Below are positions 652-39,410 of a DNA stretch of 39,435 bases, in pieces. Every line of letters starts with the position of its first letter. Position 1 is the first letter of the stretch. Below the pieces are notes generated by a model. It was given only the letters and a program-made list of their open reading frames with translations. It searched no databases and was not told where the DNA came from. The stretch is from Gemmatimonadota bacterium (GTDB lineage: Bacteria > Gemmatimonadota > Gemmatimonadetes > Gemmatimonadales > Gemmatimonadaceae), in assembly GCA_003223455.1 (NCBI GenBank), contig QHVE01000039.1, positions 1 through 39,435 on the forward strand. Direction: 5' to 3'. The position numbers and the translations under genes were made by a program.

Positions 652-1746
652 ATGAGACACACGCAACTGGTCGCGGCGGGTGCCGCGATGCTCGCGATGA
701 CGGCGCCGGCCGCCGCGCAGGATCGGCCTGCGCCCGCGCCGCGCGCCGAGATCGCGAGCCCGGAGGGGCGCACCTTCCTGCTCGACCGCGACGAGACCCC
801 GCGCGCGGCGCTCGGCGTCAACACCTCGTCGACGGGCACACGGCGCGACACGCTCGGCCTGCTCATCACGTCGATCGTGCGCGGCGGTCCCGCGGAGAAA
901 GCCGGTCTCGAAGAAGGGAACCGGATCGCAGCGATCAATGGCGTGAGTCTGCGCGCCAACGCGGTCGACATCGACGACTACGAGAGCGCGGGCACGCTCT
1001 CCCGCCGTCTGGTCCGCGAGCTGGAGAAAGTGAAGCCCGGCAACGAGGTCGAGCTGCGCGTGTATCGCGAAGGCCGCGCGGAGAACCTGCGCGTACGCAC
1101 GGTGAGCTCGGACTCCCTGTTCAAGCGCGCGAGCACCTTCCGGCGCGTGTCGCGCGAGGAGATGGACGACCGACCGGCGCTGGGCATCGGCCTGGGAAGC
1201 ACGGGCAGCCGGCGCGACACGCTTGGCGTGCTCGTGATGAGCGTGCAGGACTCCAGCCCGGCGGCGCGCGCGGGGCTGGAGGAGGGAAATCGCATCGCGG
1301 CGGTCAACGGCGTGAACCTGCGGGTTGCCCACGAGGACGCCGACGATCCGAGCCTGGGCCGCACGAAGGCGCAGCGGCTGATGCGCGAGGTGTCGCAGCT
1401 CAAGCCGGGTGACAACGTGACGTTGCGCCTCTACGCCAACGGGCAGTTCCGCGACGTGACGATGAAGGTCGCGCGCGCGGGCGACCTGCCACGCTCGCGC
1501 GGGATGACCTACTTCGGCGGACCGGACTTCCCGGTGATGCCCGCGATGCCAGCGATGCCGGCGATGCCTCCTGGTGCCCGCGGCGTCTTCCGCACGATGG
1601 AGAACTTCGGTCCCATCCGGTTCGAGCTGAGCCCCGGGATGGGCGAGAGCCTCGAGAGCATGCGAACGCAGCTCGACAAGCTCCGCCCGGAGCTCGAGCG
1701 GATTCGCACGAAGGCGCCGGTGTGGTTTGGGAGTTTGGTGGTGTAG
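652..1746 (+). CDS. Secreted double-PDZ-domain protein
   Basis: This 364-residue protein starts at ATG 652, preceded by a GAGGA ribosome-binding site. The reading frame is open further upstream, but only this start gives a signal peptide (residues 1-23, ending AAAQ). Two PDZ domains follow, at roughly residues 50-148 and 172-275. They are clear duplicates: each carries a RRDTLG strand, then a ligand-loop region and AGLEEGNRIAA(I/V)NGV. After the second PDZ comes a short MPAMPAMPAMPP repeat, then a helical tail (about 330-355). No protease triad is visible, so it resembles the substrate-binding half of HtrA-like proteins without the catalytic domain. It probably acts as a periplasmic or secreted scaffold. 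The stop codon is followed immediately by a long palindrome. Partner unknown. Confidence 0.85.
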   Translation: MRHTQLVAAGAAMLAMTAPAAAQDRPAPAPRAEIASPEGRTFLLDRDETPRAALGVNTSSTGTRRDTLGLLITSIVRGGPAEKAGLEEGNRIAAINGVSLRANAVDIDDYESAGTLSRRLVRELEKVKPGNEVELRVYREGRAENLRVRTVSSDSLFKRASTFRRVSREEMDDRPALGIGLGSTGSRRDTLGVLVMSVQDSSPAARAGLEEGNRIAAVNGVNLRVAHEDADDPSLGRTKAQRLMREVSQLKPGDNVTLRLYANGQFRDVTMKVARAGDLPRSRGMTYFGGPDFPVMPAMPAMPAMPPGARGVFRTMENFGPIRFELSPGMGESLESMRTQLDKLRPELERIRTKAPVWFGSLVV

Positions 1747-1798
1747 TGGTTTGTGGTTTGTGGTTTGTGGTTAACCACTAACCACAAACCACAAACCA
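1747..1798. repeat. Palindrome with heptamer-repeat arms; likely bidirectional terminator
   Basis: The element begins at the base after the PDZ gene's stop codon. The left side is three head-to-tail copies of the heptamer TGGTTTG followed by TGGTTA; the right side is the complementary series. Positions 1754-1773 and 1779-1798 form a perfect 20-bp stem with a 5-nt loop. It lies between two convergent genes (PDZ on +, M14 peptidase on -), which fits a shared terminator, but there is no clear U-tract on either strand. Confidence 0.8.
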
Positions 1799-1826
1799 GT
1801 CGCCACTCCCCACTCCCCCCACACTC

Positions 1827-4723: not shown

Positions 4724-7387
4724 TCAGCGCGACACCCCTCCACCCATGACCTGGATCGTGTGCTCGGCACGGATGTCGGCCGACGATGCGCCCACCTGCA
4801 GCTTCACCGGCGCCGTCTCGACGACCCAGCCATGCGTCTGCTCGTTCCAGTAGGCCAGCGACGACACGGGAATGGACAGGCGCACCGTGCGCGTTTCCCC
4901 GGGTGCGAGCGTCACGCGCCGGTAGCCGCGCAGCTCCTTGATCGCGCGAGGCACGTTCGACATGGGATACGAGACGTAGAGCTGCACGACCTCGTCGCCC
5001 GCGACCGCACCGCGGTTCGTGACGTCGACCGAGACGCCGATCGTCCCCGCCGCCGAAACTTGCTCGGCACTCGTACGCAGGTTCTTGTAGGCGAAGGTCG
5101 TGTAGCTCAGGCCGTAGCCGAACGGATAGAGCGGCGTGCCGGTGAAGTAACGATACGTCCGCCCCTTCATCGCGTAGTCCTCGAACGGCGGGAGGTCGCT
5201 CACACTCTTGTAGAAAGTGATCGGCAGCCGACCTGCGGGGTTGTAGTCGCCGAACAGCACGTCGGCGATCGCGCTGCCACCCGCCTGGCCGGGATACCAC
5301 GCCTCGACGATCGCGGGAACGTTCTGCTGCGCCCAATTCACCGCGAGCGCACTGCCGTTGAGCAGCACGAGCACGGTCGGCTTGCCGACGGCGACGACCT
5401 TCTCGAGCAACTGCTGCTGCGGCGCCGGCAGATCGATCGACGTGCGATCGCCGCCGCGGAAGCCGGGGATCTGCACGCGCATCTCCTCGCCCTCGAGGTT
5501 GGCCGTGAGGCCGAGGAAGAGCACGACCGCGTCGGCCTGCTGCGCAGCGGCGACGGCGGCCTCCTCGAGCGGACCGCTCGGCGGCGCCCACACGAGCTGC
5601 GTCTGCGCCTCGCCGTACGACTCCGCCGCCTCGAGACGCAGCCGGTACGCGTGGCCGCCCACGAGCTGCAAGGGGCGCGCTGGATCAGTCTGCGACAGTC
5701 GGGGATCGGGGAACTCGTCCTCGCGCTGCGGATAGACCGAGCGCGTGACGACGCTGTCGTCGAGGAAGAGCTGAACGCGCATCGTGCCGATGACGCCGAG
5801 CCGGTACGCGCCGGTCACCGGCGGCGTGAACGTGCCCGACCAGCGCACGGCGAAGTCGTTCGCGTTCATGTCGGGACGCGGGGCAGCCTCGGCCCAGTCG
5901 GCCTCGACGACCGTGTCCGTCGCCGAGAAGGCCGGCGTGCCCGACATCGCGCGGTTGGCGAAGTACTCCGCGCGGAGCCCGGGCTGTCCGTCCGGCGTGC
6001 GGAGCACGGTCGATGGCGCGGTGCTGAGCACCGGGAATCCCTCTGCGAGGTCCGATCCGAGTGCGTACAGCACGCGCGCGCCGTTCGACTTCAGCGCGTC
6101 GTTGATACCTCGCAACGGCGTGATCGGCTCCTTCGGGATGCCGTTGTAGTTGCCGAGCAGCATGCGCCACTGGTTCGCGTTCGGGCCGATGACGGCGATT
6201 GTGCGCAGGTCCTTGCGCAGCGGCAGCGTGTTGCGGTCGTTCTTCAGCAGCACGATCGATTCGCGCGCGACCTGTCGAGCGAGCGCGCGATGCGCCGGCT
6301 GATCGAGCACGGAGAAGGGGATCTGCGCCCAGCGCACGTGCTCGGGCGCGTCGAACATGCCGAGCTTCATGCGCGCGACGAACAGCCGGCGCACCGACGC
6401 ATCGATCTCGCGCTCGGTGATGAGTCCCTGCTTCACCGCGTCCACGAGCTTGGGGTAGACGCGCCCGAAGCAGTCGAGATCCGTCTCGTGCTTCACGCCG
6501 AGCGCGGCCGCTTCCGGGGCGGTGGGAACGACCTTGTGACCCTGGTACATGTCGTCGATCGCGCCGCAGTCGGAGACGACGTAGCCGGGAAACTTCCACT
6601 CGCGCTTGAGAATGCCCGAAAGGAGATCGCTGCCGCAGGCCGCCTCGTGGTCGATGCGGTTGTAGGCGCACATCAGCGAGTAGGGCTTCGCTTCCTTGAT
6701 CGCCGTCTCGAAGTGGGGCAGGTACGTCTCGCGCAGATCGCGCTCGCTGACCACGGCATCGAAGCTGTGGCGCTCCGGCTCCGGCCCGGAGTGGACGGCG
6801 AAGTGCTTCACCGTGGCGATGGTCTTGTAGTACTTCGGGTCGTCGCCCTGCAGGCCGCGGATGAACTGCACAGCGATGTGACCCGTGAGGAAGGGATCCT
6901 CGCCGTAGGTCTCCTGGCCGCGTCCCCAGCGCGGGTCGCGAAAGATGTTGATGTTCGGGGACCAGATCGTGAGTCCCTGGTAGCGCTGCCGCTGGTCGTG
7001 ACGCACGTACTCGTGGTGCTTGGCGCGCGCCTCGTCGGAGATGACGGTGGCCATGCGGAAGACGAGCGAGTCGTCCCACGTCGAGGCAAAGCCGATCGCC
7101 TGCGGGAACACGGTGGCGAGCCCGGAGCGCGCGACGCCATGCAGCGCCTCGTTCCACCAATTGTACGCGGGGACGCCGAGCCGCTCGATGGCGGGGGCGA
7201 CGTCCTTCATCTGATTCGCCTTCTCCTCGAGCGTCATGCGGCTCACGAGGTCGGCGGCGCGCGCCTCGAAGGAGAGCGACTCGTTCTGGTAGGCCGGGCT
7301 CTGCGCCGCAGCGGGCGCCACGACGAGGGCACAGAAGACGAGCGCCGCGAGGACGCGGCGCGAGTGAGGATCGAGCGGGTGATGCAC
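4724..7387 (-). CDS. Glycoside hydrolase family 3 enzyme with PA14 insertion (beta-glucosidase/beta-xylosidase type)
   Basis: An 887-residue secreted enzyme starting at a GTG (7385-7387) with GGAG upstream. Residues 1-29 form a signal peptide ending in AAAQ. The N-terminal GH3 barrel contains the KHFAVHSGPE motif (about 194-203) and the nucleophile motif VSDCGAIDD with D273 as the expected nucleophile. The second, alpha/beta GH3 domain is interrupted at about 445-605 by a PA14 domain (begins near LRAEYFANRAM), and a fibronectin-III-like domain closes the C-terminus. The active-site surroundings (ERHSFDAVVSERDLRETY, ETDLDCF) are those of the beta-xylosidase/beta-glucosidase branch. Probable role: removal of terminal sugars from plant-type oligosaccharides in the periplasm. 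It precedes the M14 peptidase by 8 bp. Exact sugar specificity cannot be read from sequence. Confidence 0.94.
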   Translation of the reverse strand: MHHPLDPHSRRVLAALVFCALVVAPAAAQSPAYQNESLSFEARAADLVSRMTLEEKANQMKDVAPAIERLGVPAYNWWNEALHGVARSGLATVFPQAIGFASTWDDSLVFRMATVISDEARAKHHEYVRHDQRQRYQGLTIWSPNINIFRDPRWGRGQETYGEDPFLTGHIAVQFIRGLQGDDPKYYKTIATVKHFAVHSGPEPERHSFDAVVSERDLRETYLPHFETAIKEAKPYSLMCAYNRIDHEAACGSDLLSGILKREWKFPGYVVSDCGAIDDMYQGHKVVPTAPEAAALGVKHETDLDCFGRVYPKLVDAVKQGLITEREIDASVRRLFVARMKLGMFDAPEHVRWAQIPFSVLDQPAHRALARQVARESIVLLKNDRNTLPLRKDLRTIAVIGPNANQWRMLLGNYNGIPKEPITPLRGINDALKSNGARVLYALGSDLAEGFPVLSTAPSTVLRTPDGQPGLRAEYFANRAMSGTPAFSATDTVVEADWAEAAPRPDMNANDFAVRWSGTFTPPVTGAYRLGVIGTMRVQLFLDDSVVTRSVYPQREDEFPDPRLSQTDPARPLQLVGGHAYRLRLEAAESYGEAQTQLVWAPPSGPLEEAAVAAAQQADAVVLFLGLTANLEGEEMRVQIPGFRGGDRTSIDLPAPQQQLLEKVVAVGKPTVLVLLNGSALAVNWAQQNVPAIVEAWYPGQAGGSAIADVLFGDYNPAGRLPITFYKSVSDLPPFEDYAMKGRTYRYFTGTPLYPFGYGLSYTTFAYKNLRTSAEQVSAAGTIGVSVDVTNRGAVAGDEVVQLYVSYPMSNVPRAIKELRGYRRVTLAPGETRTVRLSIPVSSLAYWNEQTHGWVVETAPVKLQVGASSADIRAEHTIQVMGGGVSR

Positions 7388-7389
7388 GG

Positions 7390-7405
7390 CTTGCTCCGCA
7401 GCAAG
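7390..7405 (-). promoter_or_regulatory. Small hairpin over the GH3 ribosome-binding site
   Basis: Just upstream of the GH3 GTG start, a 6-bp inverted repeat (CTTGCT/AGCAAG) with loop GCGG contains the GGAG Shine-Dalgarno bases. The stem could reduce initiation, but a stem this short can occur by chance. Confidence 0.25.
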
Positions 7406-7471
7406 GGGTGAGCGGGCGCTCGATCCCGAACCTAAGGGAGGGGTTGAAAGGCAGGAAGACGTGGTGCGTTG

Positions 7472-7648
7472 GTGTCTCAGTGAGTTAGTGAGCTAGTGAG
7501 TTGGTGGGTGAGCTAGTGAACTGAACGGCCCCGGCCACAACCGGCGTGGAAGCCCCGCTGAGGGATCTCTACGCTGGTTGTGATCAGGGCCGTTCACTCA
7601 CCAGTCAACCGACTAGCTCACCAACTCACCGACTCATCACCTCACCGC
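7472..7648. repeat. Nested-hairpin intergenic repeat element, copy 1
   Basis: The element fills the 264-bp gap between the gltD 3' end and the GH3 start. The outer arms are runs of short GTGAGTTG/GTGAGCTA-like units (7472-7522) with the complementary CTCACCAACT-like units at 7596-7648. The 73-nt core (7523-7595) starts with GAACGGCCC and ends with its complement GGGCCGTTC. Inside are a second paired segment (CACAACC / GGTTGTG) and a third around GGAAGCCC / GGGATCTC. A second copy with the same core lies at 36451-36648. On the - strand the element starts 4 nt after the gltD stop codon. No transposase is nearby. Confidence 0.82.
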
Positions 7649-9005
7649 CGTTCAGGCACTCGCCGCCGCGCTATGCCGCCGCGTCGACGCCGACTGGCGC
7701 AGATGCCGATCGATCGACGCCGCGGCGTCGCGTCCTTCGCGGATCGCCCACACGATGAGCGATGCGCCGCGCCGCATGTCGCCCGCGGCGAACACGCCGG
7801 GCACGTTCGTGCGGTAGTGCGCGTCGGTGGACACTGCGCCTCGTGGTCCGATCGTCACGCCGAGGTCTCCGAGCAGCCCTTCCTGCGGCACTCCGGTGAA
7901 GCCCATCGCGAGCAGCACGAGATCGACGTCGAGGGTGAACCCGCTGTCCGGCTGCTCGACGAACTTCGGGCCGTTCGGCCCCTGCTCGAGCTCCACGCGC
8001 ACGGCGTGCAGCCGCTGCACGCGGCCGTGCTCGCCGTCGAGCTTCGTCGTCGACACGCTCCAGTCGCGGTGGCCGCCCTCCTCATGCGCGTGACTGCTGC
8101 GCAGCTTCATCGGCCAGTGCGGCCACGGCGTGGACTCGGCGCGCTCCTTCGGAGGCTGTGGGAGGAGCTCGAACTGGAAGACCTCGACCGCGCCCTGGCG
8201 ATGGCAGGTGCCGACGCAGTCGGAGCCGGTGTCGCCGCCGCCGATCACGACGACGCGCTTCCCCTCGGCCCAGATCGCATGCTCGGCGGGGATCGTGTCG
8301 CCGGCGACGCGGCGGTTCTGCTGAGTGAGGTACTCCATGGCGAGGTGCACGCCACTGAGCTCGCGGCCGGCCACGCGCAGCTCGCGCGCGACCTGCGCGC
8401 CGCCGGCGAGGAGCACCGCGTCGAACTCGTCACGAAGCTGCTGCACGTGCAGGTCGCGTCCGACCTCGATCCCCGTCTCGAACACCACGCCCTCGGCCCG
8501 CATCTGATGCAGGCGCAGCTCGATCACCTCCTTCTCGAGCTTGAAGTCGGGGATGCCGTAGCGCAGCAGGCCGCCGATGCGGTCGTCCTTCTCGAACACG
8601 ACCACCGCGTGCCCCATGCGCCGGAGCTGCTGTGCGGCGGCGAGTCCCGCCGGTCCAGAGCCGACGACCGCGACGCGGAAGCCCGAGTCGGGAACGCCGG
8701 TGAGCGGCACGACCCAGCCTTCCTGGAACGACTTGTCGGCAATCGCCTGCTCGATGTTGCGGATGGCGACCGGCTGCTCGATCAGGCCGAGCACGCACGC
8801 CGACTCACAGGGCGCCGGGCAGAGTCGTCCGGTCAGCTCCGGGAAGTTGTTCGTCGCGTGCAGCGCGAGCGACGCATCGCGCCAGCGGCCCTCGCGGACG
8901 AGCGAGTTCCACTCGGGGATGACGTTCTGGACGGGACAGCCGGTGTCGCCCTGACAGAAGGGGACGCCGCAATCCATGCAGCGTGCCCCCTGCGTCCGGT
9001 AATGG

Positions 9006-13634
<4,629 letters not shown>

Positions 13635-35545: not shown

Positions 35546-36445
35546 TCAGGTTGCCGCGGAGTGGAGTGGTCCGGTGTCGCGCAGGAACGCGTGCAGCAGG
35601 GAGAAGAGCTGCGCCGGCTGTTCGACGTACGGGACGTGCCCGCTGTCCTCAATGACGACGCATGTCGTACCGAGGGCACGTGCCGCCTCCTCGGACGACG
35701 AGAGCGGGATCGGATCCTGGCGGCCGTGCACCACTAGTGTCGGCACGTGCACCGACGCGAGTGAGTCGCGCAGGTCATATTCGCCGAGCGACTGCCAGAC
35801 GGACTGCTGGACGCGGCCGGTGACGCGGAACGGCGTCAGGTCGCGTGCCCGTCTCGGGTCGGCGAAGTAGCCGGCGACGCTGATCTCGAACGCGCGCTGC
35901 CGGTACGCCTCGGCGTCGCGCTCGCGGAGACCGGACGCCTGCAGCTCGTCCCGGAGCGCGGCGACCTCCGGAGCCGCCTGCCGCCAGGCGAGCGCCTGCT
36001 CGAAGGCCAGCCGTGCCGGCCGTGTGATCGGCGCCGGATCGATCAGTGCCAGCCGCGCCGGTGGTGGCTGCACCCCGCCAGCCGCCGCCTCGACGGCGTA
36101 GAGCATCGCGAGCAACCCGCCCCACGAGTAGCCGACGATCGTCAGCGGCGCGACGCGCAGCTCGGCGGCGACGCGCGCGACGTCCTCGACCTGGTCGCGC
36201 CAGCCGATGACGGCGCGGTCGTCGTCGTAGCGCGAGCGGCCGCCGCCGCGCTGGTCGTAGGTGACGAGCCGATGCTCGTCGGCGAGCGCGAGCATCTGCG
36301 GCAGGAGATAATCGTGGCTCGCGGCCGGCCCACCGTGCAACAGCAGGATCGGCGGCGCATCGGGGTCGCCGTACTCGACCCAGTAGAGCGGCACGGGCGT
36401 GCTGGTGGTGAAGCCCTGGGCGCGTGGAGGGGGAATGGCAGGCAT
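35546..36445 (-). CDS. Alpha/beta hydrolase, proline-iminopeptidase-like (S33)
   Basis: A 299-residue alpha/beta-fold hydrolase. Visible elements are the oxyanion strand LLLHGGPAASHDYLLPQ (about 35-50), the YDQRGGGRS motif (63-71) typical of proline iminopeptidases, the nucleophile elbow GYSWGG with S107, the acid D244 in HGRQDP, and the base H270 in DSGHVPYVEQP. The cap region (about 130-220) is helical. No signal peptide, so probably cytosolic; peptide or ester substrate unknown. ATG 36445 was chosen; upstream in-frame sequence is the palindromic repeat copy 2 and is not coding. It leads the group hydrolase, unknown protein, polX and nth. Confidence 0.88.
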   Translation of the reverse strand: MPAIPPPRAQGFTTSTPVPLYWVEYGDPDAPPILLLHGGPAASHDYLLPQMLALADEHRLVTYDQRGGGRSRYDDDRAVIGWRDQVEDVARVAAELRVAPLTIVGYSWGGLLAMLYAVEAAAGGVQPPPARLALIDPAPITRPARLAFEQALAWRQAAPEVAALRDELQASGLRERDAEAYRQRAFEISVAGYFADPRRARDLTPFRVTGRVQQSVWQSLGEYDLRDSLASVHVPTLVVHGRQDPIPLSSSEEAARALGTTCVVIEDSGHVPYVEQPAQLFSLLHAFLRDTGPLHSAAT

Positions 36446-36450
36446 GTGAC

Positions 36451-36648
36451 GAGTGAGTTGGTGAGTTGGATAGTTAGTGAGTGAGTCGGTGAACCAGTGA
36501 ACGGAACGGCCCTGGCGACAACCGGCATGGAAGCCCCACTGAAGGGTCTCCACGCTGGTTCGTGGCCAGGGCCGTTCGACTCACCAATCAACCGACCAGC
36601 TCACCAACCAGCCAGCTAACCAACTCACCGGCTCACGTCGACTCACCC
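36451..36648. repeat. Nested-hairpin intergenic repeat element, copy 2
   Basis: The element fills the gap between the DUF5916 stop codon and the hydrolase start. Left arms of GTGAGTTG-type units (36451-36503) and right arms of CTCACCAAC-type units (36578-36648) flank a 74-nt core (36504-36577). The core's outer 13 bp are perfectly paired (GAACGGCCCTGGC and its complement), with the same inner elements as copy 1 (ACAACC, GGAAGCCCC, CTGGTT). On the - strand it starts within about 3 nt after the upstream gene's stop codon. Confidence 0.82.
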
Positions 36649-36650
36649 GA

Positions 36651-39410
36651 TCATCGTCCGAGCCAATAATTCACCTTCACCAAGAAGATGTTATCCGGGT
36701 GCGTCGTGAACAGCGCGGTGCGGTCGCGCGCGAAGTCGAGGGTGCCCGTATACGAGAGCTGGTCGCTGCGCGACTGCGTCCAGACGAGATACAGCGTCGA
36801 GCCCGGACGGTACTCCCAGCGATAGACGACGTTGCCGAGGAGCGAGCGCGTGTCGAAGCTTGGGTTGTCGAAGGTGAACGGCTTGGCGGGGCCGCTCGCG
36901 TCCGGATCGACGGTGTAGCCCGTGACCAGACCATCCGCGCCGGTCGTCGGCGTGATCGTGCCGCGATCGCGGCCGTAGACGCTCTTGCCCAGCTGACGCG
37001 GCGCGTCGAACTCCTTGAAGTCCGAGTACGCCCCCGATGCGATGAAGGGCTGCAGATACATCTCCAGCGTCGAGTTCGCCGTGAACGTCACGGCGACCCG
37101 CGTGTCCATCGACAGCGTCTTCTGCACGAGCGACGAGAAGACGTAGCGGTTCCCGGCAAACGCGGTGGCCGTTGGATCTTCCACGCTGGTGACGTACTGC
37201 TGAAGGCTGCGCGTGAGGTTGTACGACGGTCCGAAGGTGAGCTGCACGCTCGACGCGGGCTTCCAGCGAAGCGAGGTGTTGATCGCCGACTGGAAGCCGC
37301 CTTCGGAGTTGCGCTGGAATCGCGGATTGACGTTGAACACGACGCGGCGTCGGGAGTCGGTGCTGACGTTGGCGGAGATCAGATCGCCGCCCGGATTCAC
37401 GCCGACGGGGCCGCCGCGCAGCAAGCGATCGTCGTAGGCCTGGAGATTGTGCAGTCCCCAGAGGTTCCAGCGCCAGAACTGCGGCGTCTGGCTCTGCAGA
37501 TAGACGTGCACGTCGCGGTTGGTGAGATCCCCGTCGAAGTTCTGTGACTGCTGCGCGCCGATGATGAAGGCTGCGTCGCGATACCAGTGTGTCGGTTTCG
37601 TCCAGCCGTACGCGAGGTTGCCGATGAACTGCGCGTAGTCGGCGCGCGACAGGAAGCTGATGTCGTTCACCTCGAAGCCGGGGCTGCGCACGTTCGCCTG
37701 TGCCTCCCAGTTGAACGAACCGCCGTCCTTCGCCATGCGAATGTAGGTCGCCAGACCGCGCAGATTCGTCGCGCCGGGGCGGTACGACGAATTGAACAAT
37801 CCGCTGCGGAACCATCCTTCGTCGCCGACGGCGCGGTCGGGCCGCTGGAAGTACCGCGCGCTCGACCGCTGCACGCGCTCGATCGCCGCCGAGTCGCCGG
37901 AGACGTTCGACAGCATCGCCGACGCCAGGAGCTGATAGTTCTTCTTGTCCCACGTCAGCACGAGATCGCCGCCGAACGACTCCGCGTGCGACGTCAGCCG
38001 GTCCCGCAGGGCGCTGTCGCCGAGCCGTCGTACCACCGACGTGCCGATACCGCCGATCACGAGATTGCCGTCGCGGTAGTCCTTGGTCGCGCGGCCGACG
38101 AAGTAGTTGCTGAGCGGCTCCACCTCCTGCTTCAGCCGCGTGCCGTCGTCCTCGATCACGCTGGCCACCTCCCGCCGCGTCAGGGCGTTCAGCAGACCGA
38201 CGGTGATGCCCTTGCCCGTGCGCCCGGTGATCTTCGCCGCGCCGAGGATGGTGGAGTTCTCGGGAACGTCGGCGTACTGACCGGCATCGTAGGCGAGGCC
38301 GGCGCCCTGTGGCGCGCGTCCGATGCGGCGCGAGTAGAACGACTCGATCGAGCTGAAGTTGCTGCAGAAGTAGCAGCTCGCGTTGCCGAAGTTGAAGATC
38401 CCCGAGCCTGCGACGAAGAAGGGCCGCTTCTCCTCGAAGAAGGTCTCGAACGCGCTGAGGTTCACCGTCGCCGGATCCACCTCGACCTGGCCGAAGTCGG
38501 GGTTGATCGTGGCGTCGAGGGTGAGGTTCGACGTCAGCAGCGCCTTCACGTCGCCGCCGAAGCGCATGTCCTGCCGGCTGCCGTCGTTGAACGGATCGTT
38601 CGGCGCATCGGGACGGATGTGGCGCGAGCGCGTGACGGCGTACGGCAGCAGCTCGAGGTGCTTGGGGACGCTCCCGATCCGGATCCCCTCGAGGTGCCCG
38701 AACCGCGACGGCCCGCCAACTTCGGTCTTCCTCCAGTGCGACCACTGCGTGTACTCGTGCGAGCGCTGCATGTAGCGCCGCACCTGCAGCCCCCAGGTCT
38801 GCACCTCCTGCCGCGAGAAGCGAAGCTGCGAGTACGGGATGCGAAGCTCAGCCGTCCAGCCGAGCGAGTCGATCTTCGTACCCGCCTCCCAGATCGGGTC
38901 CCACGACCCGTCGGGAGACGAGGTGCCGACGCTGAGGGCGTCGGTCTTCACCCCGGACGGATTGATGTCGAAGAAGGCGCGACCGAGATGGTCGTGGTAC
39001 GCGTCGATCACGATCTCGAAGTAGTCGGACTCCATCTCGCCGTCGCGACGCACGAGCCGCGTGACGATGTCCTTCGGTCCGTTCTTCTCGAACATCCGCG
39101 CGCCGACGTACAGCGCTTCGTTGTCGTAGAGGAATCGGACCTCGGTGCGCTGCGTCCCCGGCTTGCCCTCCTCCGGATCGACCTGGGTGAACTGGGTGAT
39201 CGGTGTCGCCTTCGACCAACCCTCCTCGTCCAGCCGCCCGTCGATCGTGACGTTACCGACCTTCTCGACGGCGACGGCCGTGGGGACCGGCACGGCGTGC
39301 GTCGACCTCACTCCGGTGACCTCCACTCGCTGGGCCGCAGCGGAAAGGGTGAGTGCCGCGGAGAGCAACAGGGGGACGGAATGGCGGACCGTGCGGATGA
39401 AGCGTGGCAA
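36651..39410 (-). CDS. DUF5916-type outer-membrane protein with CBM9-like N-terminal domain
   Basis: At least 919 residues. A signal peptide (HSVPLLLSAALTLSAAAQ) is followed by a carbohydrate-binding family 9-like domain (about 45-240: VTIDGRLDEEGWSKATPITQF, LYVGARMF, GWTAELRIPYSQLRF). Then comes the DUF5916 barrel-like region with its hallmark NPDFGQVEVDPATVNLSAFETFFEEKRPFF (about 310-340) and SRRIGR. The C-terminus is made of alternating strands ending in VNYWLGR, as expected for an outer-membrane barrel. A cysteine pair (SCYFCSNF) lies in the hallmark region. The first start codon in the window is a TTG at 39410, but the frame stays open to the window edge, so the real start may lie outside. 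Function of the family is not established; binding or uptake of glycans or peptides is possible. Confidence 0.88.
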   Translation of the reverse strand: MPRFIRTVRHSVPLLLSAALTLSAAAQRVEVTGVRSTHAVPVPTAVAVEKVGNVTIDGRLDEEGWSKATPITQFTQVDPEEGKPGTQRTEVRFLYDNEALYVGARMFEKNGPKDIVTRLVRRDGEMESDYFEIVIDAYHDHLGRAFFDINPSGVKTDALSVGTSSPDGSWDPIWEAGTKIDSLGWTAELRIPYSQLRFSRQEVQTWGLQVRRYMQRSHEYTQWSHWRKTEVGGPSRFGHLEGIRIGSVPKHLELLPYAVTRSRHIRPDAPNDPFNDGSRQDMRFGGDVKALLTSNLTLDATINPDFGQVEVDPATVNLSAFETFFEEKRPFFVAGSGIFNFGNASCYFCSNFSSIESFYSRRIGRAPQGAGLAYDAGQYADVPENSTILGAAKITGRTGKGITVGLLNALTRREVASVIEDDGTRLKQEVEPLSNYFVGRATKDYRDGNLVIGGIGTSVVRRLGDSALRDRLTSHAESFGGDLVLTWDKKNYQLLASAMLSNVSGDSAAIERVQRSSARYFQRPDRAVGDEGWFRSGLFNSSYRPGATNLRGLATYIRMAKDGGSFNWEAQANVRSPGFEVNDISFLSRADYAQFIGNLAYGWTKPTHWYRDAAFIIGAQQSQNFDGDLTNRDVHVYLQSQTPQFWRWNLWGLHNLQAYDDRLLRGGPVGVNPGGDLISANVSTDSRRRVVFNVNPRFQRNSEGGFQSAINTSLRWKPASSVQLTFGPSYNLTRSLQQYVTSVEDPTATAFAGNRYVFSSLVQKTLSMDTRVAVTFTANSTLEMYLQPFIASGAYSDFKEFDAPRQLGKSVYGRDRGTITPTTGADGLVTGYTVDPDASGPAKPFTFDNPSFDTRSLLGNVVYRWEYRPGSTLYLVWTQSRSDQLSYTGTLDFARDRTALFTTHPDNIFLVKVNYWLGR

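Follow-up and report, generated by a model that had tools for sequence, protein, structure and literature searches.

A dispersed palindrome family at gene 3' ends in a Gemmatimonadaceae genome, a candidate bidirectional mRNA 3'-end module

REP elements favour convergent and unidirectional intergenic spacers and can supply stop codons to the genes they adjoin (PMC3733652). Larger palindromes include YPAL, for which the model is 168 nt long and 101 sequences are recorded in Y. pestis (PMC2267715), and the RU elements, described as MITE-like and 127 and 168 bp in length (PMC2759123). In Neisseria and Pasteurellaceae, inverted pairs of short uptake-signal words serve as hairpins at gene 3' ends (PMC1852404). 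The element described here has points in common with each. REP, BIME and REPIN sequences are, like it, many-copy palindromes at convergent or unidirectional gene ends whose own ends often provide the stop codon, but REPs are 20–40 bp long and carry a GTAG or CGTC tag, with a RAYT for the GTAG type, whereas the element is about 176 bp long, ends in GGTGAG and has no associated RAYT. YPAL and ERIC (RU) sequences are likewise dispersed intergenic palindromes, of about 130–170 bp, present in tens of copies and with a single hairpin possible; they belong to another phylum, and tandem 8-bp arms do not figure in the descriptions consulted. Unlike uptake-signal terminators, the element has words that stand in tandem arrays, show no enrichment in coding DNA and are replaced between sister species. 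The short tandemly repeated repetitive (STRR) heptamers of cyanobacteria are similar in that words of about 7 nt are repeated in tandem between genes; to our knowledge, no report has them forming inverted arms on either side of a hairpin that directly adjoins a stop codon. The features tested place the element outside the REP family, and by analogy it may work like the 3'-end palindromes of the REP, BIME and YPAL type.

The window analysed is a 39,435-nucleotide stretch of contig QHVE01000039.1 from a Gemmatimonadota bacterium, in which the initial annotation had noticed a hairpin of several tiers at 7472–7648, between gltD and a GH3 gene. The hairpin proved to be real, with outer, middle and inner stems nested between arms of degenerate repeats and a fold z-score of about -11, but its boundaries did not hold and the unit runs from 7463 to 7646 (Table 1). 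In the core, the outer stem GAACGGCCC...GGGCCGTTC (strands at 7523–7531 and 7587–7595) encloses a middle stem, ACAACC/GGTTGT (7537–7542 and 7576–7581), and an inner stem of the form CCC-loop-GGG. Direct repeats in the arms of this copy are spaced 8, 8, 8, 12 and 8 nt apart, and its 50-nt arms are 76% complementary. Copy 1 folds as one hairpin on either strand, at -110.3 kcal/mol (+) and -111.6 kcal/mol (-), with z-scores of -11.0 (+) and -11.2 (-) and no equally stable sequence among 200 shuffles; for copy 2 the z-score was -11.4 over the span 36453–36636. The octamer pair, with up to 3 mismatches, occurred 11 times in the window against 0.19 expected. Seven window genes were checked against Pfam, and no Rfam match in the window exceeded the gathering score.

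Table 1. Positions of the element copies, a related hairpin and the adjoining genes in the window
Feature	Position	Strand	Details
Element copy 1	7463..7646	+	184 bp in a family of about 176 bp; A arm left, B arm right
Arm A of copy 1	7463..7522	+	Degenerate 8-bp repeats GTGAGTTA GTGAGCTA GTGAGTTG ... GTGAAC
Core hairpin of copy 1	7523..7595	+	Class I, forward relative to arms
Arm B of copy 1	7596..7646	-	Inverted 8-bp repeats with near-invariant inner word CACCARTCAACCGAC
Element copy 2	36453..36629	+	Core 36504–36577, class I forward
Related but different armed hairpin	1744..1807	+	(TGTGGTT)n heptamers and inverted arm
gltD-like glutamate synthase small subunit	7652..9058	-	Stop 5 nt from element copy 1
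GH3 glycosidase	4724..7387	-	Start 75 nt beyond the other end of copy 1
DUF5916/CBM9 protein gene	36651..39326	-	Stop 21 nt from element copy 2
Alpha/beta hydrolase gene	35546..36394	-	Start 58 nt beyond element copy 2

The second copy that had been reported 29 kb away was found at 36453–36629, but two is far short of the full number. In the genome from which the window comes (G000, a 4.96-Mb draft in 127 contigs), blastn returned 77 matches, which fell to about 40 places after both strands of the near-palindrome were merged. With a profile (R1) made from 38 of the copies, the count was 40 places scoring at least 78 bits and one scoring 40 bits, besides four partial matches, which puts the family in this genome at about 41 copies or more. 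The aligned copies are 167–184 bp long (mostly 174–179), nearly all with the constant ends GGTGAG...CTCACC, and carry terminal inverted repeats, GGTGAGTTGG...CCAACTCACC. Unrelated loci hold copies that are up to 97% identical, so the spread is recent. Among 60 genomes, its own included, the whole element is present only in G000 and absent from the 59 relatives; in the congener G007, the R1 profile found no copy and matches were restricted to the arms. In a search of 395 genomes of the phylum that tolerated one mismatch, the octamer pair GGTGAGTTGGTGAGTTGG was counted 102 times in G000 and 91 times in G007, and no other genome had more than two occurrences; octamer arrays are confined to those two genomes.

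Some loci of G000 carry the arms in other company. Element-like arms surround an unrelated core at L045:2993–3171, arms resembling those of the element flank a diverged core at about position 2000 of L130, and element-like arms stand without any core at about 2000–2052 of L123. A viral or plasmid origin was rejected: the arm word and the octamer pair were absent from the IMG/VR contigs, and no plasmid match was found. A scan of contigs with the B-arm word gave four single matches in unrelated phyla, which is roughly the chance level for 19 bases.

Gene boundaries were called in the draft G000 assembly with a codon-usage caller written for this analysis. The element lies a median of 3 nt from the gene 3' end and 38 nt from the 5' end (p 1e-6). 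The 37 classified copies occupy 18 convergent, 17 tandem and 2 divergent spacers; the background, sampled from the copy-bearing contigs with element spacers excluded, comprised 53 convergent, 239 tandem and 48 divergent spacers (n=340), which makes the convergent class strongly over-represented (18/37 versus 53/340, Fisher p 1e-5). The outermost GTGA of the element provides the TGA that ends the gene at 17 of the 54 gene ends it adjoins; the next TGA in the array is not used as the stop at any of the 54. Copies in tandem spacers turn the B end toward the upstream gene in 13 of 16 cases (p 0.02). Outside the element, convergent loci keep a median of 2.5 nt of other spacer, compared with 31 nt where a convergent spacer is ordinary (p 0.002), so the element either lands in spacers that are already very short or takes the place of the entire spacer. 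Several of the translated neighbours resembled, by eye, ordinary housekeeping proteins, and the C terminus of the gltD-like product in the window resembles that of G007. Two copies, L043 and L041, were found between divergently called genes, one of them 3 nt before the called start codon; these either break the 3'-end rule or reflect errors in the gene calls.

A terminator or 3'-end RNA had been among the roles first suggested for the hairpin, and the position of this multi-copy structured element at gene 3' ends fits that reading. A GC-rich hairpin just 3' of the stop codon is a feature of intrinsic terminators that the element shares. No U-tract follows the hairpin, however, and a terminator scan gave no hit in 7000–8200; lacking this tract, the window element does not demonstrate classical intrinsic (Rho-independent) termination.

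From two copies, the arms had appeared to vary around a conserved core, and the core had been taken as the selected part. The larger sample reversed this picture. Over 38 copies the arms had mean identities of 0.815 and 0.860, above the 0.765 and 0.703 of the core halves, and hardly any variation was seen in CTCACCAATCAACCGAC, the inner word of the B arm. The cores sort into three classes. The class I core sits in both orientations between the arms (14 forward, 10 reversed), as does, judged by eye, the inner part of class II, and the nine class III copies have lost the partner strand of the outer stem, GGGCCGTTC. Arm and core divergence were uncorrelated (Mantel r 0.03–0.05), partly because core classes exist and the class I core occurs both ways round, whereas the two core halves diverge together (Mantel r 0.46). 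There was no co-evolution of the arms within a copy, with a pairing of 25.3 for arms of the same copy versus 25.1 between copies. RNAalifold over all 38 copies was uninformative because cores of opposite orientation were mixed. Once 21 class I cores had been put in the same orientation, pairing held in 92% of pair cells, but not a single compensatory (double) change appeared; selection on pairing is thus not demonstrated, and recent spread is enough to explain the pairing of the core. Measured against the refuting outcomes named in the initial annotation, a lack of further copies and of conserved pairing, the result is mixed: copies are numerous and most pair cells pair, but compensatory changes are absent.

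Orthologous gene ends in nine congeners were located with a joined query of C-terminal pieces, and the spacers were then read. The spacer between gcvP and gcvH holds the element in G000, a separate armed hairpin in G007, inverted (GTGAACC)n arrays in G008 and G003, (GTGAGTCG)/(CAGT)n in G001, a short GTAGGAC array in G004 and no array in G009. At the SOD gene, a terminator-like hairpin is flanked by GGAAGACA arms in G005 and by ACGGTTC arms in G008. The words differ by congener: GTGAGTTG and GCGGGGAT in G007, GTGAACC in G008 and G003, GTCGGTCA in G001, GTAGGACG in G004, GGAAGACA in G005 and CGAGTAA in G002. In G007, GTGAGTTG arrays stand immediately 3' of stop codons and are followed by hairpins of the form AACGGCCTCGGGA..TCCCGAGGCCGTT. 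The window itself contains a heptamer case, between convergent genes, in which the array begins at the TAG stop (1744–1746) and the hairpin has a z-score of -7.8.

A strict tandem-array scan recovered few arrays in G000 because the arms are degenerate, and it was replaced by tests of autocorrelation and end pairing. Summed over sampled spacers from the ten genomes of the genus, pairing of the outermost 32 nt exceeded the 99th shuffle percentile in 18 of 69 convergent spacers, compared with 5 of 322 for the tandem class and 4 of 180 for the divergent class; G000 and G007 together contributed 13 of the 18, and other species contributed one to a few each. G000, G007 and G001 showed a raised period 8 in their convergent spacers but not in their divergent ones; the relative G030 did not show it. 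Hairpins of the form GAACGGCCC-N-GGGCCGTTC, with varied interiors, were present in 12 of 31 genomes (own included), compared with one genome for the reversed control pattern, and 12 of 16 such hairpins had a gene 3' end within 180 nt. These hairpin counts support the view that the outer stem GAACGGCCC/GGGCCGTTC represents a class of 3'-end hairpin found elsewhere in the family.

Other arrays were seen along the way. In one convergent spacer (L195), an array of the octamer GTGACTCA fills the spacer and touches both stop codons. A third type of arm, with GTACC-rich words, occurs in convergent spacers of G000 and G007 (L189:16664, L230:7453 and L231:2956). In a tandem spacer of G002 (L277), GGATTAG heptamers reminiscent of telomeric words lie 3' of the gene.

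On balance, we lean towards the view that the element is a bidirectional mRNA 3'-end or terminator module, belonging to a species-private family of dispersed palindromes that spreads without a RAYT. Copying would have placed the unit of about 176 bp alongside the stop codons of genes already there. Once transcribed, it would form one very long and very stable hairpin at the mRNA 3' end and, reading the same from both sides, a single copy could serve two convergent genes. It might stop transcription in both directions and block both 3' exonucleases and antisense read-through, with the octamer arms lengthening the stem and supplying TGA stop codons. The whole unit would have spread within the genome without target duplication; later shuffling of arms and cores and flipping of the core would probably reflect recombination or hairpin-mediated exchange between the inverted arms. 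Several observations count against a 3'-end module, namely the missing U-tract, the zero compensatory changes, the lost partner strand of class III, the 2 of 37 copies in divergent spacers and the fact that arms of the same copy pair no better than arms of different copies.

A selfish miniature transposon resembling MITEs or REPINs and mobilised in trans by a transposase encoded elsewhere, whose placement at stop codons would reflect target choice or purifying selection rather than function, is possible but in our estimate rather unlikely. The element is a discrete unit of constant length with constant inverted ends, its inner B-arm word is as invariant as would be expected of a recognition site, and its near-identical copies at unrelated loci point to recent spread. 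Against this, there was no target-site duplication, the flanking match averaging 1.97 nt compared with 2.14 nt for swapped flanks, though such a duplication is absent in some transposon families. Among the loci read, no full-length relative was found with a gene inside it, and the only Y1/RAYT-type gene of G000 is flanked by other repeats. The very short residual spacer at convergent loci is also harder to obtain by random insertion. In the sample of array loci read, no autonomous partner with the same ends was seen.

The arms could instead have arisen in place: slippage would expand a 7–9-nt word containing or abutting the stop codon, and template switching on the hairpin would carry it into the opposite arm, with no need for a mobile element. 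Simple arrays of different words that start from the stop codon in several congeners, the heptamer case at 1744 in the window and the enrichment of period 8 in convergent but not divergent spacers of G000 and G007 all speak for such a process. It leaves unexplained why some 41 closely similar units of 176 bp, alike in their asymmetric arms and their core, stand at unlinked loci, and we consider it improbable as an account of the element.

Mobilisation of a REP element by a RAYT, which the initial annotation had raised, is disfavoured and appears very improbable. A search for such genes did find Y1/RAYT-type transposases, one in G000 (L050:1335–2370, C32) and two in G007 (L292 and L293), but all three are bordered by GGGGTCAGA-type repeats unrelated to the element and not by its arms. 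These are the only Y1 genes among ten genomes of the genus and they coincide with the two genomes that share GTGAGTTG arrays, which would favour a link, as would the preference of REPs for convergent and unidirectional gene ends, where the GTAG end often gives a TAG stop (PMC3733652). However, five of the eight congeners without a Y1 gene show at least one armed 3'-end hairpin, albeit in a small sample, and no GTAG or CGTC tag was present at the ends of the aligned copies. Least credible of all, and rejected, is a DNA-uptake-signal-like word whose inverted pairs double as terminators: short inverted words do form gene-end hairpins in Neisseria and Pasteurellaceae, but uptake signals generally occur 1,000 times or more per genome (PMC1852404), and GTGAGTTG was at expectation in coding DNA (4 seen, 4.0 expected) and strongly enriched in spacers (42 seen, 1.3 expected).

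More tentatively, the element may be one species' version of a genus-wide 3'-end system in which position and architecture are kept and the word is replaced wholesale. Convergent spacers would then have been rewritten again and again as words or whole units were copied in trans to stop codons, perhaps with the help of a dedicated enzyme. What is kept might be, with the same reserve, an array of a G-rich 7–9-nt word flush with the stop codon, then a hairpin, then an inverted C-rich array. The most interesting point to us is that sister species appear, in modest samples, to use different words at the same stop codons.

Dispersed gene-end palindromes are already known, and a REP-type transposase does not account for this one; what is unusual is that sister species keep the placement and layout of these hairpins and build them from different words. 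If this is true, the genus would offer a natural series for asking how such elements spread, why they stop exactly at stop codons and whether transcription in a GC-rich phylum, one for which we know of little transcript mapping, can end at a very long hairpin that has no U-tract.
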